NCBI GenBank assembly: GCA_022827055.1
Contig: JAJDTR010000129.1
Coordinates: 1-64,000 of the forward strand
Source of the DNA: Candidatus Poribacteria bacterium
GTDB lineage: Bacteria; Poribacteria; WGA-4E; JAJDTR01
Direction: 5' to 3'
Length of the DNA: 64,000 nucleotides
Shown here: piece after piece, positions 52,323 through 62,214 of the stretch
How the letters are laid out: each line of letters opens with the position of its first letter
How positions within the stretch are numbered: the stretch's first letter is position 1
Made by a program: the position numbers and the translations under genes
The notes under the pieces: model-generated
What the model saw: the letters and a program-made list of their open reading frames with translations, nothing else
Told to the model about the DNA's origin: nothing
The model's database searches: none

Positions 52323-54332
52323 TCAAACTAGGTCGGGATCGGCGACGATTTCAACCATGCTCGGTCCGTCATGAGAGAGTGCGTCCGTTAGGGCGCGATC
52401 TAGGTCGTCTTGGTTCGTGACACGAATGCCCAGCGCGCCGCAAATGTTGGCGTATTCCGCAAAGTTCGGGTTGTGCAGCGAGGTTTGCCAAACGTCCCAG
52501 TGTCCGGCACGCTGCTCTTTGGTGATTTTACCGAGTTGGTTGTTGTTTAGCAAGATGTGGGTGATGTTCATGTCGTATTTAACCGTGGTGGTAAGTTCAG
52601 CCATGTATTGTCCAAAACCACCATCGCCGGAAACCGCAATCACGGGCCGACCCTTGTAGCGCGGGTCGTCTTCCCGCGTTGCCGCGAATGCCCCCATTGC
52701 CGCCGGATAGGCGAAACCGATTGAACCCAGGTAACCGGACATCAGGATTGATTGGCGCGTGCATTCGAAATACCGACCAAACGAATAGGTGTTATTTCCC
52801 ACGTCCACAGCAATTATCGCATCATCGGGGATTAGCCTGTTCATGGCGGCAAAGACGGACGCGGAGTTAATTCCTTTTCCGCGGGTCTCATGTAGCCGTC
52901 GTTCTTTCTCGGTTCTCCAGATTTTCCAACGTTCCGCAATTTCCTGACGTTGGTTAATTGTGTCAATCTTTCCGTCGAAAGCGTTGGAAAGTAATCCTGT
53001 CGTAACGCCGATTTCTCCCCAAACAGGTACATCCACGGCATGGAACTTCCCTAACGTCATTGCGTCAAAGTCTACTTGGATAGTCGGCTTTTTGTCCGTG
53101 ATGCCGGTGTGGTTGCTGAAGCTGGCGCCGAGTACGAGCAAGCAATCGGATTCGTTCATAAACCAACTGGCGATTGGCGTGCCGCTCCGACCGAGAACAC
53201 CGCAACCGAGTGGATGTTTGTCAGAGATTAGCCCCTTGCCTTTGAAGGTGGTGATAATTGGGCAATTAAGCATTTCTGCGAAGGCAGTTATTTCGGGCAT
53301 ATTGAAGCGAGCGCCGTGGCCCACGATGACGGCAGGTCTTTTTGAATTTCGGAGTAGGTCAACCGCTTCCTGAAGTGAGTCCTCCGGAGGAGAGATTGCG
53401 CGTGGTGTAACTCTCCCCTCGGGAGAACCGGCGTCAGCATCTTCCAACGCGGATAGAGTCTGAACTTCATCCGGAAAGATTAGGTGTGAGACTCCGCGAT
53501 TGAGTATTGCACTTTTGCATGCGAGGGTCATGAGTTCGGCATGTTTGCTGGTATGCAGCACGGATTGCGTCCACTGGGCAACTTTGCCGTATGCCGCCCC
53601 CAAATCAATCTCTTGAAAAGCGCCGGGGCCGAGTACCTGGGTGTCAACTTGTCCGGTCAGCGCTAAGATTGGCGCCCGATCGACATTGGCGTCCCAAAGC
53701 CCCGTGAGCAAGTTTGTCGCTCCAGGCCCAGCGATTCCGAGGCAGGCAGCCGGTCGTCCTGTCAGTTTGCCGTATGCTGATGCGGCAAACGATGCGGCGC
53801 CTTCGTGGCGAATTCCGATATAAGTCAGTTTTCCAGCTTCTTCCTGTTCTCGCAATGCGTCAGCCAAGCCGAGATTGGAGTGACCTACCATACCGAACAC
53901 GTGGCGTACTCCCCAATTCACCATCGTTTCTACTATCACATCGGATACTGTACGAATTCGTGGTTGTTCCGCCGCTAATCCGACATAAATGCCGTCCGGT
54001 TTTTCTTGCACCGGATAAGTTTCGACTCCATCATCATAACCGCCGGGAGGTTTACCAGAAAGCGGATGAAAATCCCATCCATGCCACGGACATCGCAGCC
54101 ATCCTTGCTCTATCGAGCCCTCCCCAAGTGGACCGCCTTGATGCGGGCATTTGTTGTCAAGTGCCGCGTATTTTCCTTCGAATCGTGTCATGCAGAGGGT
54201 CTTGTGCGCGCACGTAACCGGTTTGACCCGCCCCTCGGCTAACTCATCGACGTCGAGCGCTTTGTACCAGATCTGCCCGGCTTCCTCATTGTCCACGTCT
54301 GCTCTCGTTTCTTCTCTTTTTTCGTTTTCCAT
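52323..54332 (-). CDS. Fusion of a Rieske [2Fe-2S] domain with a thiamine-diphosphate-dependent enzyme (acetolactate synthase/oxidase-like)
   Basis: 669 residues. The N-terminal Rieske domain about 20-115 binds a [2Fe-2S] cluster through Cys62/His64 (KCPHQGG) and Cys81/His84 (RCPWHGWDF). A full ThDP enzyme follows from about 125: PYR domain with activating Glu177 (GIRHEGAASFAASAYG), AGPGATNLLTGLWDANVD, the central domain RPAVIVGHGARFN, and the PP domain with the ThDP-Mg motif GDGGFGQYMAELTTT...LNNNQLGK. It resembles acetolactate synthase/pyruvate oxidase/sulfoacetaldehyde acetyltransferase relatives; the substrate is unknown. A redox cluster suggests electron transfer coupled to decarboxylation. 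The start is ATG 54332 with AGAGGAG upstream. Last gene of a minus-strand operon. Confidence 0.92.
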   Translation of the reverse strand: MENEKREETRADVDNEEAGQIWYKALDVDELAEGRVKPVTCAHKTLCMTRFEGKYAALDNKCPHQGGPLGEGSIEQGWLRCPWHGWDFHPLSGKPPGGYDDGVETYPVQEKPDGIYVGLAAEQPRIRTVSDVIVETMVNWGVRHVFGMVGHSNLGLADALREQEEAGKLTYIGIRHEGAASFAASAYGKLTGRPAACLGIAGPGATNLLTGLWDANVDRAPILALTGQVDTQVLGPGAFQEIDLGAAYGKVAQWTQSVLHTSKHAELMTLACKSAILNRGVSHLIFPDEVQTLSALEDADAGSPEGRVTPRAISPPEDSLQEAVDLLRNSKRPAVIVGHGARFNMPEITAFAEMLNCPIITTFKGKGLISDKHPLGCGVLGRSGTPIASWFMNESDCLLVLGASFSNHTGITDKKPTIQVDFDAMTLGKFHAVDVPVWGEIGVTTGLLSNAFDGKIDTINQRQEIAERWKIWRTEKERRLHETRGKGINSASVFAAMNRLIPDDAIIAVDVGNNTYSFGRYFECTRQSILMSGYLGSIGFAYPAAMGAFAATREDDPRYKGRPVIAVSGDGGFGQYMAELTTTVKYDMNITHILLNNNQLGKITKEQRAGHWDVWQTSLHNPNFAEYANICGALGIRVTNQDDLDRALTDALSHDGPSMVEIVADPDLV

Positions 54333-54444: not shown

Positions 54445-55791
54445 TCAATATCCCAATTGCTTTGATGTTTCTTCAATGGCATCTCCCAGCACATTTACTA
54501 CAACAGACACTTCATCCTCGTTTATCGTAAAGGGTGGACTGATAGCGATGTGGTCGCCACTGACGCCGTTAACCAAACCCGGTGCGCCGGGCATAACCAA
54601 TACTCCGTTTTCAAAGGCGGAACTGACAACTATTGACGTTACATCTTTTGAGACATCAAACGGTGTATTCTTATTCTTGTCGGCGACGAATTCCATTCCA
54701 ATGAGTAGCCCCTTTCCACGCACCTCTCCGACAATTGGCAACTCTTGCAAATCACGAAGTTTATCAAGCATCAACTCGCCCATCTCTGCACACCGTGACA
54801 CAAGGTTGTGTTCCTGAATGTAGTTCTGGACGGCAAGTGCAACAGCGCAGGAGAGCGGATTTCCTCCATAGGTATGGCCGTGCACAAAGGATGTTGACTT
54901 CGAGTAAATCGCGTCATATATCCTCTCATGCGCGATAGTAGCGGCAATAGGCGTGTATCCGCTGCTTAACCCTTTTCCCGTAGCCATGATGTCGGGAGTC
55001 ACCTTCCAGTGTTCAATACCAAAATTTAGACCTGTGCGTCCAAATCCGGTGACAACCTCATCAATAATCAACAGAACATTATGCCGATCACATATCTCTC
55101 GAATTGCGGGATAGTAATCCGGCGGCGGTGCAACGCCGGCAGCGGACGTACCGAGGATTGGCTCGGCGATGAATGCGGAGATATACTCGCTTCCCTCTTG
55201 AGTGATTACCCGTTCAAGTTCGTCGGCACAACTGAGGTGGCAGTCGGGATAAGTTTGTCCGTAGGGACAACGGTAGCAGAACGGCGGCGGAATATGTGGG
55301 AAGTCGAGAAGGTATGGAACATAATCCTCGCGCCAGGGCGTGCGTCCAGACATCGAAAGCGCGCCGATTGTGTTCCCGTGCCAGCCCTGCCATCGGGCTA
55401 TCACCTTATATTTTTTGGGATTTCCAGTTTCAATGTGGTACTTCCGTGCGATTTTCACCGCGGCTTCCGTGGCTTCCGATCCACCTGAAACATAAAATAC
55501 TCTCGATAATCCCTCTGGCGCGAGTTCGGTGATTTTCTCGGCGAGATCGACTTGGGCTTGAGTAAGAAAACGACCATACGTGAAACAGACTTTTCTCGCC
55601 TGTTCTTCCATCGCGTCTACTATTTCTTTAACACCGTGACCGATGCTCACAACATGCACACCCGCGGCGGCATCGAGATAACGCTTACCTTCGGTGTCAA
55701 ATAGATAGATGCCATCACCGTGTGTGATGTATTGCCATTCCTTTTTGAGCGTCCTGTGAAAAATTCGATCCCCGTCCGGAGTTTCAAGCAT
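54445..55791 (-). CDS. Class III PLP aminotransferase
   Basis: 448 residues, fold type I. Conserved blocks: YLDAAAGVHVVSIGHGVKEI, VSGGSEATEAAVKIARKYH, KVIARWQGWHGNTIGALSMS, the Cys-rich insert CYRCPYGQTYPDCHLSC (common in one branch of this family), IIDEVVTGFGRTG with the cofactor Asp, and ATGKGLSSGYTPIAA with the PLP lysine. It probably transaminates an omega-amino acid or polyamine-like compound with pyruvate or 2-oxoglutarate; the substrate is not readable. The start is ATG 55791 with GGTGA upstream. It sits between a PLP dehydratase and the Rieske-ThDP enzyme, suggesting a catabolic pathway for an amino compound. Confidence 0.92.
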   Translation of the reverse strand: MLETPDGDRIFHRTLKKEWQYITHGDGIYLFDTEGKRYLDAAAGVHVVSIGHGVKEIVDAMEEQARKVCFTYGRFLTQAQVDLAEKITELAPEGLSRVFYVSGGSEATEAAVKIARKYHIETGNPKKYKVIARWQGWHGNTIGALSMSGRTPWREDYVPYLLDFPHIPPPFCYRCPYGQTYPDCHLSCADELERVITQEGSEYISAFIAEPILGTSAAGVAPPPDYYPAIREICDRHNVLLIIDEVVTGFGRTGLNFGIEHWKVTPDIMATGKGLSSGYTPIAATIAHERIYDAIYSKSTSFVHGHTYGGNPLSCAVALAVQNYIQEHNLVSRCAEMGELMLDKLRDLQELPIVGEVRGKGLLIGMEFVADKNKNTPFDVSKDVTSIVVSSAFENGVLVMPGAPGLVNGVSGDHIAISPPFTINEDEVSVVVNVLGDAIEETSKQLGY

Positions 55792-55858
55792 GTATGTCAC
55801 CGTAGTGATTGAGCATATTCTTGGAGCTGAATCTCGGTCGATTTGGCGTTGACCTCAT

Positions 55859-56815
55859 TTATCCTACTATCGACTTAAGCGTTGCGGTATCGATATTGGC
55901 ACCGCTCATAATCATCACGACGTTCCGGTTTTCCAGTTCAGTCTTCAGCTTTCGAGCCGCCGCAATTGGAGTAACAGCAGCCGGCTCCGCCAAGTTGTGC
56001 GTATATCGCAACGCCATTCGAACGGCTTTTCGAATTTCGTCGTCGCTCACCAAAACGATCTGGTCGATTCCTTTCTTGATGATTGACAGCGGCAAGTCGA
56101 ATGGTACTCGTGTGGCTAGTCCGTCCGCTATGGTTTCACATGATTCTGTTTGAATTGTCTTTCCCGTCTTCCATGAGAGGTAAATCGCCGGTGCGTTCTC
56201 CGCTTGGACGCCGATAATTTTCGCCCCCGGGTGGATTGCACGTGCCACGGTAATCGTGCCGCACGATCCGCTACCTCCTCCGATTGGTACGATAATTACG
56301 TCCAGATTCGGTAGTTCTTCGAAGACTTCGAGAGAATATGTCCCCACGCCGTGATATAGAGCAGGTTCAACAAGCGGATTCAGATAATAATACCCTCTCT
56401 CGGCTTGCAAACTTTCACACAGCTCTCGTGCCTCGTCAAAGTCAGCTCCATGTTCAATGAGTTCCGCACCGTATGCACGCATTGCACTGTTCTTTTCCGG
56501 ATTGTTTCCATACGGGACAACGATTGTGGTGTGAACTCCAAATTCCCTTCCTGCAAGGGCTATCGACTGACCGTGATTTCCTCTCGTGACCGTTACCACT
56601 CCGCGCCCCTTCTGTTCATCCGAAAGTTGCGCCATGAAGTTCAAACCGCCGCGAATCTTGAAACTCCCGGTTGGCAGATGATTTTCGTGCTTGATGTAGG
56701 CGTTAAATCCGAAGAAACTAGATAACTCAGGATATGGAATTAGCGGGGTGGGTTTTATGAAGCGGTAGACGGGATGGCGAGCAGCAAGTATGCCTTGAAA
56801 TGTAACGGAATTCAA
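55859..56815 (-). CDS. Threonine/serine dehydratase-like PLP enzyme (fold type II)
   Basis: 318 residues. Motifs: TPLIPYPELSSFFGFNAYIK, HLPTGSFKIRGGLNFM with PLP lysine Lys53, VTVTRGNHGQSIALAGREFG, IIVPIGGGSGSCGTITVARA (phosphate loop, GGGSG) and VMIMSGANID near the end. No ACT regulatory domain, so it is the catabolic/serine-racemase-like form. It likely deaminates threonine or serine, or a substituted analogue. The start is TTG 56815 with AAGGGAG 6 bases upstream; the longer frame lacks a ribosome-binding site and would begin too close to the promoter. Confidence 0.9.
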   Translation of the reverse strand: MNSVTFQGILAARHPVYRFIKPTPLIPYPELSSFFGFNAYIKHENHLPTGSFKIRGGLNFMAQLSDEQKGRGVVTVTRGNHGQSIALAGREFGVHTTIVVPYGNNPEKNSAMRAYGAELIEHGADFDEARELCESLQAERGYYYLNPLVEPALYHGVGTYSLEVFEELPNLDVIIVPIGGGSGSCGTITVARAIHPGAKIIGVQAENAPAIYLSWKTGKTIQTESCETIADGLATRVPFDLPLSIIKKGIDQIVLVSDDEIRKAVRMALRYTHNLAEPAAVTPIAAARKLKTELENRNVVMIMSGANIDTATLKSIVG

Positions 56816-56853
56816 AGGAATCTCCCTTGAAAATAGACCTAATATTTGGTACA

Positions 56854-56882
56854 ATAATAGCAACGTTTGAGAGCACTGTCAA
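56854..56882 (-). promoter_or_regulatory. Sigma-70 promoter of the dehydratase-aminotransferase-ThDP operon
   Basis: On the minus strand, TTGACA (56877-56882) and TATTAT (56854-56859) with a 17-base spacer, 38 bases before the TTG start. This very close match supports the corrected start. Confidence 0.75.
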
Positions 56883-56990
56883 CCCCATACCATTTGGGAA
56901 AACATGCGGTTACATTTGAAGTGAATCGTGGCGATGTAGATTGCAAAGATTCTCCGATTCTCACTGGCAGTGGCGGCGCAAAGGACAAAG

Positions 56991-57968
56991 ATGACAGAGT
57001 TACATTGGCAGTCCGATCTAATTGAAGTGAACGACGAAACGGATCCGATAGAGGTCCCTTATCAGAACGGTTGGGCGGATGGGCTGCCCGTGGTTCCACC
57101 AACGCCCGAGCGGGTAAAACACATGCTTACCGGCACGGAACGTCCGGCAGATGAGATGATCGCGCCAATTCCGCCCAAGTGGGGACGCGCCACAGTCGAA
57201 AAGGTCGCCATCAATGCGGTCATGGCGGGATGCAAACCGGAATACATGCCTGTCATAATAGCAGCGATAGAAGCCATGACAACTGAAGTGTTCAGTTTGC
57301 ATGGCGTTCAGGTAACCACTTCCCTTGTATCACCGCTGTTAATTGTTAATGGTCCCATACGAAAAGAATTGGAAATCAACGATGGTTTCAATGTCTTTGG
57401 CCAGGGTTGGCGGAGCAATGCCACTATTGGCAGGGCAGTTCGTCTCATCTGCACCAACATCGGCGGTGCATTGCCCGGGGAATTGGATCGCGCGACGTTC
57501 GGACATTCGGGGAAGTTCACGTATTGCATTGGAGAAAAAGAAGAGGTCAGCCCGTGGCCGCCACTGCACGTCGATCGTGGGTTCGAGGCGTTTCAAAGCA
57601 CCGTAACTGTCTTTGCAGGCGCTTCCCCTCGGGTCATTGATGACCACGGCAGCAACACGGCTGAAGGAATCCTCAATACAATTTGCCTTAATCTCGCCGT
57701 GCCGGGAATCGCCGACGGAGAAATCGTCATAGTATTGAGTCCGGAGCACTCAAAGACCATTGGCGACGATGGTTTAACCAAGCTTGAAGTTCAAGAATAC
57801 GTGTGCGAGCACACCAAGATTGAAACTTCCCAAACAAGACTAATTACCCCACGCAAAGTTGACGAGGTAATTGTTATGGTGGCAGGTGGACCGGCCGGAC
57901 GAAGTACGATGGCTGTTTCAGGTTGGGGAGGTGCAACCCAATCCGTGACTGTGCCAATATGTGCCTGA
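56991..57968 (+). CDS. Conserved protein of the type associated with UGSC selenoproteins
   Basis: 325 residues, soluble, no signal peptide. Distinctive blocks: NGWADGLPVVPPTPERVKHM, PKWGRATVEKVAINAVMAGC, KPEYMPVIIAAIEAM, LHGVQVTTSLVSPLLIVNGP, NATIGRAVRLICTNIGGALP, FGHSGKFTYCIGEKEEVSPW and TVTVFAGASPRVIDDHGSN. I recognise this family as uncharacterised proteins often encoded next to UGSC-motif (seleno)proteins and catabolic genes; no UGSC gene lies beside it here. A Cys follows in MAGC and TYC. The start is ATG 56991 with AAAGGACAAAG upstream. The final TGA is followed within seven codons by TAA, so a readthrough is not supported. Biochemical role unknown. Confidence 0.75.
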   Translation: MTELHWQSDLIEVNDETDPIEVPYQNGWADGLPVVPPTPERVKHMLTGTERPADEMIAPIPPKWGRATVEKVAINAVMAGCKPEYMPVIIAAIEAMTTEVFSLHGVQVTTSLVSPLLIVNGPIRKELEINDGFNVFGQGWRSNATIGRAVRLICTNIGGALPGELDRATFGHSGKFTYCIGEKEEVSPWPPLHVDRGFEAFQSTVTVFAGASPRVIDDHGSNTAEGILNTICLNLAVPGIADGEIVIVLSPEHSKTIGDDGLTKLEVQEYVCEHTKIETSQTRLITPRKVDEVIVMVAGGPAGRSTMAVSGWGGATQSVTVPICA

Positions 57969-58204: not shown

Positions 58205-58669
58205 ATGGATGCGCACATGTTGTCTCTGCCAATCAGCACCCTAAATCCGAATCAACCTTGTTCAGTGGAAACTGGCACGTCGGTTAGTGAAGCTATCCAG
58301 TTGATGCAGGATGGCAGATTTGGATGCGTGTTGGTTGTTGACGCCGAAGAAAGGCTTGTCGGCATCGTCACCGAGAGAGATCTGCTCGTGGAGATTACCG
58401 GCACAGGCGCGGACCCGGAGGAGGTGGTTGTTGATGACGTCATGACACCCGAACCGGAATCACTGCGTGCAAGTGATCCGATTGCTTTTGCACTGAATCT
58501 CATGCATCTGGGACACTACCGCCATGTACCTTTAGTATTGTCCGATGATGAGACTCAAAGCGACGAAGGCGGCTATCCGGTCGGTGTGATCTCAAGCAAA
58601 GACATTACTCATCACGTCGCAGCTTTCTTGGAAGGAAGTAACGGAGAGGAGAGGAAAGATGCTGTATGA
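58205..58669 (+). CDS. CBS-domain pair protein
   Basis: 154 residues, two CBS motifs and nothing else: CSVETGTSVSEAIQLMQDGR then RLVGIVTERDLLVEITG (first), and VVDDVMTPEPESLRASDPIA then YPVGVISSKDITHHVA (second). CBS pairs bind adenosine nucleotides and act as energy sensors, often through partner proteins. AAAGGAGCC precedes the ATG. Its 3' end overlaps the next CBS gene by 11 bases, so the two are translationally coupled. Confidence 0.92.
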   Translation: MDAHMLSLPISTLNPNQPCSVETGTSVSEAIQLMQDGRFGCVLVVDAEERLVGIVTERDLLVEITGTGADPEEVVVDDVMTPEPESLRASDPIAFALNLMHLGHYRHVPLVLSDDETQSDEGGYPVGVISSKDITHHVAAFLEGSNGEERKDAV

Positions 58670-59198
58670 GGAAATCGTTGATGAAGAGCTGGCGATTATG
58701 GATGAATCGCCCGATGAGCCTTCAAAGACGTTGAGTGCGCACGAGATCCAGGTTCCGCTAAATTCTCTGATGACTCCTCCAGTCACAATTGAAATGGGCG
58801 CGAGCGCCCAAGATGCTATCAATTTAATGATTGATCGTCATGTCGGGCATGTGTTGATTGTTTCCGCCGGAATTCTGAAAGGAATATTCAGCGAGCGTGA
58901 CGTGTTAGTGAAAATTCTAAACAAGCCGGTGGGTAATCTGAGGCAGATCCCGGTCGAACATTTTATGAAAGCCGATCCACAGACCGCGAACGTGAAAGAT
59001 TCACTTGATGCGGCAATCTTGTATATGGCGAAAGGCGGATATAGGCATGTTCCTGTAGTAGATGAGGAGAATCATCCGGTTGGAACGGTGTCCGTGCGCG
59101 ATATTATTTCCCACTTGGTCGAACATTTCCCGCAAGATGTGCTAACACTCCCTCCCAAACCGATTCGCCGCGCGATGAAATCCCGTGAGGGTGCTTAA
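58659..59198 (+). CDS. CBS-domain pair protein
   Basis: 179 residues. An acidic N-terminal extension of about 45 residues, then two CBS motifs: LNSLMTPPVTIEMGASAQDA with ILKGIFSERDVLVKIL, and VEHFMKADPQTANVKDSLDA with HPVGTVSVRDIISHLVEHFP. AGGAGAGGAAAG precedes the ATG. It is coupled to the previous CBS gene and lies 134 bases before the ferredoxin oxidoreductase genes, so the pair may sense energy charge for that enzyme; this is inference. Confidence 0.92.
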   Translation: MLYEEIVDEELAIMDESPDEPSKTLSAHEIQVPLNSLMTPPVTIEMGASAQDAINLMIDRHVGHVLIVSAGILKGIFSERDVLVKILNKPVGNLRQIPVEHFMKADPQTANVKDSLDAAILYMAKGGYRHVPVVDEENHPVGTVSVRDIISHLVEHFPQDVLTLPPKPIRRAMKSREGA

Positions 59199-59332
59199 AA
59201 GTAGATGCACAGACAAAGATTTGGGTGCATAAAAACGGCAAGAACATGGCAGTTTGAGAAGAGGATGAGTCGACGCCGTAGAACAGCAGGACCATGTGGC
59301 ATGACGCTACATGGGAAGGATAGAGAAGTGCG

Positions 59333-61171
59333 ATGAATAAGAAAATGCAGACCATCGAGGAGGCTACGATTCTGTTTGCTGGGGACTCCGGCGATGGTTC
59401 GCAGATAATCGGTACACAGATGACCGAAGCTTCTGCAATTGTGGGAAATGATGTTGCGACGCTCCCTGATTATCCGGCGGAAATTCGTGCACCCGCAGGT
59501 TCATTGGCAGGTATATCCGGTTTTCAGCTACATTTTTCGAGTGAGAACATCCACACACCGGGAGATGCGTGCGATGTGCTTGTTGCAATGAATCCGGCAG
59601 CGCTAAAGGTCAACTTAGACAACCTCAAACCGAATGGTCTTCTCATCGTAAATTCAAACAATTTTGCCTCGCGCAATCTTAAGTTGGCGGGGTATGAAAG
59701 CAATCCCTTGGAAGATGGTTCTCTAGAAAAATTTCAGGTTTATCCGGTAGAGTTAACCCGGCTAACGCGGGAAGCGCTAAAAGACACAGACTTAAGTCAG
59801 CGCGAGGTCGATCGGTGCAAAAATTTCTTTGCGGTCGGGATGGTTTTCTGGTTGTACAATCGCCCGATGGAGAACACGCTCCATTTCATAAAAGAGAGAT
59901 ATGCAAAAAAACCCGAGTATGTCGAAGCAAATACCTTGGCACTTAAAGCGGGCAACGTTTACTGCGAGGCGACAGAGCAGTTTGCTACGTCCTACGTAGT
60001 AGAACCCGCAGAATTTCCGCCGGGAAAATACCGGAATGTTGAGGGGAATATGGCAACGGCGTTTGGGCTTGTTGCCGCCTCCCAGGTGTCGGGCTTGCAA
60101 TTGGTTTACGGCAGTTATCCGATTACCCCTGCGAGTAGCATTCTTCACGCTCTAGCAAATCACAAGGAATTTGGCGTAGTTACGATGCAGATGGAAGATG
60201 AGATCGCCGCCATCGGAGTCGCCATAGGCGCGGCGTTCAGCGGGGCATTGGGTGTAACCGGAAGCAGCGGACCGGGGCTCGCCCTAAAGTCTGAGGCGTT
60301 AAATCTTGCCATGATTGCGGAGTTGCCGATCGTTGTGTGCAACATTCAACGCGCAGGACCATCAACGGGTATGCCTACAAAGACCGAACAAGCGGATCTG
60401 TTGCAAATGTATTATGGACGGAACGGCGAATCGCCCGTTCCGATTATAGCCGCTTCACGGCCGTCGGATTGTTTTGATGCAATCTATGAAGCCTGTCGCA
60501 TTGCCGTCAAGTATATGACGCCTGTCATATTTATGTCGGACCTCTATGTCGCGTTTGGCGCAGAACCGTGGAGAATTCCGGAAGTTTCGGATTTGGCTGA
60601 AATCAACGTGGACTTTCGGACAGAGGAGGAGGGATTCAACCCATACCTTCGTGATGCGACAACGCTCGCGCGCCCATGGGTAAAACCGGGGACTCCCGGT
60701 CTGGAGCATCGAATCGGAGGATTGGAGAAAGCTGACATCACGGGGAATGTCAGCTACGATCCGGAAAACCATGAGCAGATGACACATATTAGATCAGAAA
60801 AGGTCGCACGCATTGCCGATGATATCCCGCCTCTGGAGGTTTTCGGGCCTCAAAAGGGCAATCTCCTCGTTGTGAGCTGGGGAGGAACGTTCGGAGCTGT
60901 CCGAACGGCAGTCGAGCGCAAACAGGGGAACGGTGCGTCTGTCGCACACACGCATTTGCGATACCTCAACCCCTTACCCAAGGACTTGGGTGGAATTCTT
61001 GAGCGGTTCAATCGAGTACTTGTCCCCGAACTTAACCTTGGTCAGTTAAAGCAGTTAATCCGCGCCGAATATTTGATACCAGCGGAAGGTCTCAATAAAG
61101 TACAGGGTCAACCCTTTCACGTGTTTGAAGTCGAATCCAAAATTGATGAGTTACTAGAAGGTGAAGTATGA
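59333..61171 (+). CDS. korA: 2-oxoacid:ferredoxin oxidoreductase, alpha subunit (gamma-alpha fusion)
   Basis: 612 residues. The N-terminal 200 residues are the gamma domain (FAGDSGDGSQIIGTQMTEAS, PAEIRAPAGSLAGISGFQLH), fused to the alpha part: GNMATAFGLVAASQVSGLQL, YGSYPITPASSILHALANHK, GSSGPGLALKSEALNLAMIA, QRAGPSTGMPTKTEQADLLQ, and the C-terminal transketolase domain. This two-subunit form (with KorB) oxidatively decarboxylates 2-oxoglutarate or another 2-oxoacid to the acyl-CoA, reducing ferredoxin; it runs in reverse in autotrophs. The next gene starts inside its stop (ATGA). Confidence 0.95.
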   Translation: MNKKMQTIEEATILFAGDSGDGSQIIGTQMTEASAIVGNDVATLPDYPAEIRAPAGSLAGISGFQLHFSSENIHTPGDACDVLVAMNPAALKVNLDNLKPNGLLIVNSNNFASRNLKLAGYESNPLEDGSLEKFQVYPVELTRLTREALKDTDLSQREVDRCKNFFAVGMVFWLYNRPMENTLHFIKERYAKKPEYVEANTLALKAGNVYCEATEQFATSYVVEPAEFPPGKYRNVEGNMATAFGLVAASQVSGLQLVYGSYPITPASSILHALANHKEFGVVTMQMEDEIAAIGVAIGAAFSGALGVTGSSGPGLALKSEALNLAMIAELPIVVCNIQRAGPSTGMPTKTEQADLLQMYYGRNGESPVPIIAASRPSDCFDAIYEACRIAVKYMTPVIFMSDLYVAFGAEPWRIPEVSDLAEINVDFRTEEEGFNPYLRDATTLARPWVKPGTPGLEHRIGGLEKADITGNVSYDPENHEQMTHIRSEKVARIADDIPPLEVFGPQKGNLLVVSWGGTFGAVRTAVERKQGNGASVAHTHLRYLNPLPKDLGGILERFNRVLVPELNLGQLKQLIRAEYLIPAEGLNKVQGQPFHVFEVESKIDELLEGEV

Positions 61172-62214
61172 GACAAGAAACCCCCAGCCAAGTGCCCGGA
61201 GCCGCACCCACATTAACCAAACGAGATTTTGAATCGGATCAGGATGTTAGATGGTGTCCGGGGTGCGGCGATTACTCGATTCTTGCACAAACACAGCGAA
61301 TTCTCCCGGAATTGGGGATTCCGAAAGAAGATTTGGTTTTCATCTCCGGAATAGGTTGTTCCAGCCGCTTTCCGTATTATATGGATACCTACGGTTTCCA
61401 CACGATACATGGAAGAGCACCGACGATAGCGGCGGGCGTTAAAATTGCCAACCCCGAACTTTCGGTATGGGTAATCACGGGCGATGGTGATGCGTTGTCA
61501 ATTGGAGGGAACCACTTCATCCATTTGATGCGACGCAACCTTGATATCAATGTGCTGTTGTTCAACAATCGCATATATGGCTTGACGAAGGGGCAGTATT
61601 CACCGACTTCCGAACAGGGAAAAGTAACTTACTCAACCCCGATGGGGTCCATCGAGAATCCGTTCAACACAATTAGCCTTGCGTTAGCGTCTAGAGTATC
61701 GTTTGTTGCCAGATCTCTTGATAGGGACTCAGATCACTTGCGCCGTATTATTAAGGCAGCATTTGAACATAAGGGGACCTCGTTCGTTGAGATTTATCAA
61801 AATTGCAATGTGTTCAATGACGGCGCGTTTTTTCAGTATACCGAGAAAGAGACAAAGGCTGACAACACGGTATTCTTAGAACATGGTGAACCTTTGGTTT
61901 TCGGAAAGGACCGCGATAAGGGGATTCGACTTAATGAACTTCGACCGGAGGTAGTGTCGCTAACAGATGGTAAATACACGGTGGAAGATCTCATGGTGCA
62001 TGATCAGTTTGCAGATGGTCCGACACTCGCACACTTCTTTGCCCGTATGACAGATTTGCCAAACGTGCCAACGCCCGTCGGTATCTTTCGTTCTTTCAAC
62101 AGGCCGTGTTATGAAGATTTCATGACTCAACAAATTGATGCCGCGAGAGGGACAAAAGGACAGGGCGATCTGGAAGGACTGCTGAATGCGGGTGACACAT
62201 GGGAGATTGAGTGA
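61168..62214 (+). CDS. korB: 2-oxoacid:ferredoxin oxidoreductase, beta subunit
   Basis: 348 residues. WCPGCGDYSILAQTQRILPE with cluster-ligand Cys30 and Cys33, GIGCSSRFPYYMDTYGFHTI, HGRAPTIAAGVKIANPELSV, ThDP-Mg motif WVITGDGDALSIGGNHFIHL, and NRIYGLTKGQYSPTSEQGK, which is the 2-oxoglutarate-type signature. It carries ThDP and a [4Fe-4S] cluster. Overlaps korA by four bases. No separate ferredoxin-like delta subunit gene is present. Confidence 0.95.
   Translation: MRQETPSQVPGAAPTLTKRDFESDQDVRWCPGCGDYSILAQTQRILPELGIPKEDLVFISGIGCSSRFPYYMDTYGFHTIHGRAPTIAAGVKIANPELSVWVITGDGDALSIGGNHFIHLMRRNLDINVLLFNNRIYGLTKGQYSPTSEQGKVTYSTPMGSIENPFNTISLALASRVSFVARSLDRDSDHLRRIIKAAFEHKGTSFVEIYQNCNVFNDGAFFQYTEKETKADNTVFLEHGEPLVFGKDRDKGIRLNELRPEVVSLTDGKYTVEDLMVHDQFADGPTLAHFFARMTDLPNVPTPVGIFRSFNRPCYEDFMTQQIDAARGTKGQGDLEGLLNAGDTWEIE

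Follow-up and report, generated by a model that had tools for sequence, protein, structure and literature searches.

A Rieske domain fused to a pyruvate-oxidase-like thiamine diphosphate enzyme in Candidatus Poribacteria, with a Rieske-glutamate synthase protein as candidate electron acceptor

In this study, we show that a gene of Candidatus Poribacteria encodes a Rieske [2Fe-2S] domain and a thiamine diphosphate (ThDP) enzyme in one polypeptide, and that this fusion is the mark of a monophyletic family with a single origin. Moreover, in several lineages the fusion tends to occur together with a second Rieske protein, in which the domain precedes the FMN-binding part of glutamate synthase (Rieske-GltS). 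We give even chances to the reading that the family consists of soluble 2-oxoacid oxidoreductases of the pyruvate-oxidase type, dependent on ThDP and probably FAD, in which the Rieske domain would be the exit for electrons, in many hosts towards Rieske-GltS.

Results

The window analysed here is the whole 64,000-nucleotide stretch from position 1 to 64,000 of contig JAJDTR010000129.1 (assembly GCA_022827055.1), and the features of the fusion gene and its upstream neighbours are collected in Table 1. All four Pfam domains of the fusion score above their curated cut-offs, the Rieske domain with 60.9 bits (E 1.1e-16) against a gathering score of 20.3, and the linker between it and the ThDP enzyme measures about nine residues. 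A preliminary description of this DNA had placed Cys62, His64, Cys81, His84, Glu177 and the motifs GDGG and NNN in one polypeptide; every one of them is located in the 669-residue reading frame as described, GDGG including D570 and NNN occupying residues 596-598. The Rieske ligands are invariant in the alignment (48 of 48 fused rows), and G338-x-G340-A341 and R382 of the central domain fall in invariant or nearly invariant columns. Since invariant columns make up 32 of 151 in the central domain and 21-27% in the other domains of the fusion, the central domain is no more conserved than the rest, and conservation alone does not prove that it binds FAD. Both the Rieske and the ThDP parts are under strong purifying selection, with dN/dS between the window and sister Poribacteria copies, a single pair with dS of about 0.8, at 0.057 for the Rieske domain and 0.026-0.043 for the ThDP domains. 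The fusion is single-copy in the window genome, whose 18 other matches are ThDP enzymes without a Rieske domain (at most 32% identical) or proteins matching the Rieske part only.

Table 1. Positions in the window of the fusion gene, its domains and the two genes upstream of it
Feature	Coordinates	Strand	Remarks
Rieske-ThDP fusion gene	52323..54332	(-)	Start codon ATG at 54332; 669 aa without an internal stop
Rieske [2Fe-2S] domain, residues about 20-118	53979..54275	(-)	Pfam PF00355 at 22-94; ligands C62, H64, C81, H84
ThDP PYR domain, residues 128-244	53601..53951	(-)	Pfam PF02776 TPP_enzyme_N; E177 (catalytic Glu), F239, Q240
Central domain, residues 320-444	53001..53375	(-)	Pfam PF00205 TPP_enzyme_M; position of pyruvate-oxidase FAD domain; G338-x-G340-A341, R382
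ThDP PP domain, residues 510-662	52347..52805	(-)	Pfam PF02775 TPP_enzyme_C; V511, D570, N597, E606
Lys602 codon	52527..52529	(-)	At pyruvate-oxidase Phe479 position; family-specific
Class-III aminotransferase	54445..55800	(-)	Same strand, 112 bp upstream of fusion
PALP threonine/serine dehydratase-like	55859..56863	(-)	Same strand, 58 bp gap to aminotransferase; NF004771 above cut-off

Rieske-based peptide patterns, run against genome contigs from 84,980 species, returned at least 590 stretches, 569 of which, as listed, encode a relative. The best 80 were kept and joined by five plasmid loci (the sister copy L094 was omitted because it is the same genome region as L014), and in all 85 proteins extracted the CxH...CxxH motif, with all four ligands, lies ahead of the ThDP enzyme in a single frame. 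Because the 80 loci were found by Rieske-based patterns and are thereby biased to fusions, two less biased tests were added. Whole-protein tblastn against 72,556 plasmid records gave five fused matches at 53-66% identity, the lowest in Mycobacteroides, before the first unfused one at 36%; the five are annotated only as 'thiamine pyrophosphate-binding protein'. A query with the ThDP part only, against 244 cyanobacterial and 247 acidobacterial genomes, gave 1 and 16 matches, respectively, at E<=1e-90, all 17 fused in one open frame. Separate frames in relatives, the sign by which the preliminary description proposed to recognize a gene-boundary artefact, were looked for and did not occur among the 85 extracted proteins or these 17 matches, and the fusion claimed there is genuine.

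Among the matches listed, hosts of the fusion are Acidobacteriota, Nitrospirales, Planctomycetota, Myxococcota, Gemmatimonadota, Cyanobacteria, Bacteroidota, KSB1, Ignavibacteria, Opitutales, alpha- and gammaproteobacteria, an omnitrophote and haloarchaea, and the closest locus belongs to a Candidatus Poribacteria MAG (93% identity, with the surrounding gene order kept). At E<=1e-100 the gene is present in only two of 58 related genomes, that of the window and that of a member of its genus. A tree was built by a quick method from the ThDP sequences of 39 fused and 11 unfused proteins, after removal of L006, a twelfth unfused row that aligned poorly. In it a branch with SH-aLRT 100 separates all fused sequences from the unfused ones; in view of the method and of the long outgroup branches, only this split is used. 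The unfused rows that adjoin the fused clade are pyruvate-oxidase-like. The clade has its phyla intermixed and includes the haloarchaea, a pattern that suggests spread of the family by horizontal transfer.

With regard to the type of ThDP enzyme, the PDB sequences that match best are those of PoxB and of L. plantarum pyruvate oxidase. An AlphaFold2 model of the fusion built from 45 sequences (pLDDT 89.1, pTM 0.88) has E. coli PoxB as its top Foldseek match (3eya, E 5.6e-44), and structure comparison aligns 516 residues, within 126-668 of the model, to 3eya with Z 40.8 and rmsd 2.6. A ThDP-dependent HKA synthase (8xod, Z 40.3) ties with 3eya by Z, and the fold alone therefore does not decide the enzyme type; the list of structure matches is filled by the ThDP part, and the absence of other folds from it is no evidence. 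The three-domain fold is common to the fusion, E. coli PoxB (3EYA/3EY9) and C. glutamicum PQO (9EV6), at 25-29% identity, as are the catalytic Glu and the Phe-Gln pair. The fusion differs from them in the added N-terminal Rieske domain, in Lys602 in place of Phe and in lacking the C-terminal membrane segment, since its reading frame ends where the alignment with 3eya/3ey9 stops, at residue 531 of 572 of the PoxB chain.

Alignment with L. plantarum pyruvate oxidase (1POX) shows that the catalytic Glu, the Phe-Gln pair, the Val and the equivalent of Glu483 are present in the fusion. In LpPOX numbering, E59, F121, Q122, R264, V394 and E483 are kept, of which E59, F121, Q122, V394 and E483 correspond to E177, F239, Q240, V511 and E606; besides the added Rieske domain, M422 is replaced by Ile538 and F479 by Lys602. 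All 48 fused rows have Lys602. Of 12 unfused relatives, 11 have a residue at this position, and it is M, Q, S, I or N and in no case K; Met or Gln occupies the 479/465 position in those that lie closest in the tree, so that Phe is not universal. Lying beside the ThDP site, Lys602 could affect the choice of substrate or adjust the transfer.

None of the 25 NCBIfam models listed reaches its cut-off for the fusion, the best score of a PoxB/SpxB/PRK08611-type model being 394 bits against 742 (the pyruvate-oxidase cut-offs lie at 638-893), and the fusion is thus not assigned to PoxB, SpxB or any named enzyme. A PHROGs search added one uninformative family. The suggestion in the preliminary description that sulfopyruvate or sulfoacetaldehyde might be substrates found no support: with the model for Xsc (sulfoacetaldehyde acetyltransferase) the fusion scores 221 bits, where the cut-off is 676, and clustering of the neighbours of the 85 loci, which misses families present in fewer than three, shows no recurrent sulfonate genes near the fusion.

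The closest PDB chains to the Rieske domain are the Rieske ferredoxins of dioxygenases and monooxygenases. Those with the best matches (2QPZ, 1VM9) have the same CxH...CxxH pattern and a similar size; they are free-standing, whereas the Rieske domain of the fusion is covalently joined to the ThDP enzyme. The earlier proposal of a new, quinone-independent exit for electrons would fit this predicted arrangement of a ferredoxin-type Rieske domain on a pyruvate-oxidase-type enzyme without the membrane segment of PoxB.

The two upstream genes in the window had been taken to suggest a catabolic pathway. The aminotransferase is probably co-transcribed with the fusion, in the Poribacteria lineage only; a homologue of it at good identity lies near the fusion in 1 of the 85 loci, as does a PALP dehydratase. 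The catabolic context is thus local to Poribacteria and not general, being kept only in one other Poribacteria genome. For the same reason the dehydratase and the aminotransferase, together with KorAB and ArgG, were rejected as general context.

Clustering of 925 predicted genes around the 85 loci gave Rieske-GltS as the dominant family, found in 41 loci, in 37 of them within 2.5 kb by the distance measure used. It lies directly upstream of the fusion in 19 loci (at most 128 bp) and directly downstream in four (at most 33 bp), that is, directly adjacent on the same strand within 130 bp in 23 of the 41, with a 4-bp overlap in three; the choice of start codon may account for a few negative gaps of larger size. 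Other recurrent neighbours, with families named from one or two representatives each, are DUF5996 (22/85), an Na+/H+ exchanger (10/85), a Ferric_reduct plus Rieske protein (10/85), accompanied by a membrane protein that matches no Pfam family (8/85), and an FMN_red flavoprotein (4/85). All these counts are lower bounds, since the flank is shorter than 1.8 kb upstream in 10 of the 85 loci and downstream in 10. One cluster (cluster 4, nine loci) proved to be made up of ORFs antisense to the fusion and was excluded, and another (cluster 3) includes two oversized ORF calls (L018, L074). Antiporter and sensor-kinase genes were also seen beside the fusion at some loci.

The partner protein was analysed in a representative (L042), in which Pfam finds a Rieske and a Glu_synthase domain (PF01645, 308.7 bits); the copy of the window genome has the same architecture. 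Its Rieske ligands C43, H45, C62 and H65 are invariant, and so are C450, C456 and C461, which align with the 3Fe-4S cysteine motif of true glutamate synthase. Only residues 210-510 of its 538 match 1EA0, from chain residue 854 on, and both Pfam and this alignment show the glutamine amidotransferase domain to be absent. Moreover, the partner has QGAKTGTGGHLPG where true glutamate synthase has QGAKPGEGGQLPG, and taken together these two differences indicate that its product may not be glutamate. The Rieske domains of fusion and partner are only 27% alike. In the window genome the partner is unlinked to the fusion and is 70% identical to a Gemmatimonadales copy.

Members of the same GltS subfamily without a Rieske domain occur in Gammaproteobacteria, and seven of the seven fetched have two CDGSH motifs; these motifs are not found in the partner, which has the Rieske domain there instead. 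A combination of dual CDGSH with the FMN domain of glutamate synthase has been described as type 5 CISD (PMC3174974), and the seven gammaproteobacterial proteins do fit it. The GltS half of type 5 CISD belongs to the same subfamily as that of the partner (61-67% identity) and both proteins begin with a [2Fe-2S] module, the difference being that Rieske replaces the two CDGSH motifs. Neither a Rieske-GltS nor a Rieske-ThDP protein appears in the available parts of PMC3174974 and PMC5859297, and full-text searches of mainly open-access literature found no description of either.

At the level of whole genomes, those of 50 of the 80 loci were searched for GltS, and 31 gave a match that includes the Rieske part. 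The other 19, among them Leptothoe and Xenococcus genomes, comprise 14 with no match, two with a distant paralogue only (G105, G107), two with partial C-terminal pieces (G064, G068) and one (G066) in which the match starts at residue 125 of a 517-aa frame, a length like that of the CDGSH type; the partner is therefore not obligatory. In Gammaproteobacteria the fusion is present in 3 of 184 genomes and full-length Rieske-GltS in 7, with an overlap of 3 (G162, whose 43% GltS match reaches the N-terminus, was not counted as Rieske-GltS). The corresponding numbers in Halobacteria are 5 and 6 of 145 with an overlap of 5, and in Acidobacteriota 16 and 11 of 247 with an overlap of 9, one of the 11 being partial and next to the fusion (G840). 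Fisher p values with the seed genome left out are 9e-4, 2.9e-7 and 9.3e-10, respectively; they are uncorrected for relatedness and, as genomes are not independent, are to be read as indications and not as exact probabilities. Seven acidobacterial genomes have the fusion and no Rieske-GltS (G087, G762, G779, G788, G804, G836, G882); G087 is the Holophagales MAG of locus L054, and the other six may be related to it. Among 244 cyanobacterial genomes the fusion was found in one, the seed itself, and Rieske-GltS in none, which leaves no basis for a co-occurrence test.

A set free of Rieske domains, made up of GltS, a pyruvate-oxidase-like ThDP enzyme, an antiporter, an SDR and a thioredoxin, was seen in Streptomyces NBC_01497. 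Neither such a ThDP gene nor the antiporter lies within 4 kb of the 73-76% identical GltS on three other Streptomyces plasmids, and the same neighbours are absent beside the GltS genes of Rhodococcus, Ruegeria, Comamonas and Photobacterium. The set, which had looked like strong support, was set aside as an anecdote that is not repeated at these other loci.

Discussion

It seems that the Rieske domain could serve these enzymes as a built-in carrier. In the mechanism that we propose, ThDP would decarboxylate a short 2-oxoacid, pyruvate or 2-oxobutanoate; alternatively, the invariant Lys602 may favour an acid that bears two negative charges. The electrons would then pass, probably via FAD, to the Rieske cluster and in many hosts from there to the Rieske domain of the partner, where the reduced FMN would then drive a reductive amination like that of glutamate synthase. 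Where the partner is missing, the host would use another acceptor, for example the FMN_red flavoprotein whose gene adjoins that of the fusion in some cyanobacteria. As a speculation from the neighbours of one lineage, the natural substrate in Poribacteria might be the product of the dehydratase, pyruvate or 2-oxobutanoate, and the ammonia released might be used by the partner.

A tentative extension of this mechanism, which on balance we hold doubtful, is that the two proteins are a directly wired pair. The Rieske-ThDP and the Rieske-FMN-3Fe-4S enzymes would swap electrons via their matching Rieske domains and so link an oxidative decarboxylation with a reductive amination, with no need of NAD(P)H, quinone or free ferredoxin. 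Both would be passed on together from phylum to phylum and across the divide between bacteria and haloarchaea, and a Rieske domain or a dual CDGSH would serve equally as a plug of this system.

It is unlikely, in our judgement, that the Rieske cluster is instead a sensor of redox state, oxygen or iron that turns the ThDP enzyme, and with it the GltS partner, on or off and carries no electrons in turnover. Rieske and CDGSH are both His-ligated [2Fe-2S] domains, and that one takes the place of the other at the start of proteins of a single GltS subfamily would suit a sensor, as would the antiporters and sensor kinases near some loci and the protein of a tubeworm endosymbiont (L067), the sole case among the 85, in which two CDGSH motifs, Rieske and ThDP enzyme stand in one chain. 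However, both associated enzymes come from redox families whose members depend on an electron donor or acceptor from outside, and the closest relatives of the Rieske domain are electron carriers. Slightly less likely still is an exit from the Rieske cluster to a membrane acceptor, such as the Ferric_reduct-Rieske neighbour, or to the general pool of ferredoxin or flavodoxin, with GltS merely co-regulated. Neighbours that would fit such an exit do exist, the Ferric_reduct-Rieske type in 10 of 85 loci (one representative tested) and the FMN_red flavoprotein adjoining the gene in L048, L051 and L060 (representative tested), but they are far rarer than GltS with its 41.

We consider it improbable that the protein is a non-redox lyase or carboligase, resembling acetolactate synthase or acting on sulfopyruvate or sulfoacetaldehyde, with a structural Rieske domain. 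The ThDP superfamily includes many non-redox enzymes and the model fold also matches AHAS and lyases in the structure comparison; against this, E606 is Glu as in pyruvate oxidase where the AHAS-like paralogue L002 has Trp, the group next to the fused clade is pyruvate-oxidase-like, no listed NCBIfam model reaches its cut-off and the Rieske ligands do not vary. That two separate genes were read as one by an error of gene boundary or assembly has virtually no chance of being true and was ruled out by the pattern-based and ThDP-only surveys, all 85 extracted relatives being fused and 24 of 25 further loci having the fusion in one open frame, with the exception an interrupted second copy (L130, broken by a stop in a Halomicrobium genome that also holds an intact copy).

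The electron acceptor of known pyruvate oxidases is either oxygen or a membrane quinone. That a monophyletic family has the Rieske domain as a fixed part points towards a third electron route for enzymes of this type, and the statistical tie to a second Rieske fusion, with a glutamate-synthase domain, names an acceptor that can be tested. The occurrence of Rieske and CDGSH at the same place on one enzyme subfamily bears on the function of CDGSH domains in bacteria. Moreover, the association of Rieske-ThDP with Rieske-GltS suggests an undescribed wiring between the breakdown of oxo-acids and the building of amino acids.

N-terminal modules and neighbours of the fusion

Proteins of the glutamate-synthase FMN subfamily begin with one of two N-terminal arrangements, a single Rieske domain or two CDGSH domains, and all seven of the gammaproteobacterial GltS (glutamate-synthase FMN/3Fe-4S domain) proteins that we fetched (L144, L145, L146, L147, L148, L149 and L150) are of the CDGSH type. 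In a tubeworm endosymbiont, two CDGSH motifs, a Rieske domain and the ThDP enzyme follow one another in this order in the Rieske-ThDP fusion itself, a single chain with three [2Fe-2S] modules.

About 10 of the 85 fusion loci encode a membrane protein that resembles ferric reductases and ends in a Rieske domain; a conserved membrane protein with no Pfam match adjoins it at about 8. DUF5996 proteins adjoin the fusion repeatedly (22 of the 85 loci), also where Rieske-GltS, its recurrent partner, is absent; the name DUF5996 was not found in a full-text literature search. The Streptomyces operon that combines a ThDP enzyme with a GltS lacking Rieske was not found in three other Streptomyces plasmids examined.

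Coordinates of the features described
Feature	Location	Remarks
Tubeworm endosymbiont fusion	L067:7812-9995	
Ferric-reductase-like/Rieske protein and membrane companion	L024:3761-4819 (-); L078:6099-7130 (-); L093:6827-7591	
DUF5996 protein	L075:7126-7962	21 other loci
GltS without Rieske, pyruvate-oxidase-like ThDP enzyme, cation:proton antiporter	L143:2490-7166	operon; Streptomyces NBC_01497 plasmid
Rieske plus ~480 residues	L098:4454-6295; L099:852-2633; L099:4931-6679	window genome
332-aa protein	window 56970-57968	kept at 83% in sister genome
Two small CBS-domain proteins, KorAB-like two-subunit 2-oxoacid:acceptor oxidoreductase	window 58205-62214	one strand

Other genes of the window genome and a second fusion copy

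In three more proteins of the window genome, a Rieske domain is fused to a stretch of about 480 residues without any Pfam match. In the window, the CBS-domain pair immediately precedes the KorAB-like genes, an arrangement also present in the sister genome (the other Poribacteria genome with the fusion), and the 332-aa protein had no match in Pfam, NCBIfam or PHROGs.

In Halomicrobium katesii, a second fusion copy (L130) is broken by a TAG stop, and broken pieces of Rieske-GltS lie approximately 5-20 kb from it. Together they are apparently a duplicated pair in decay.
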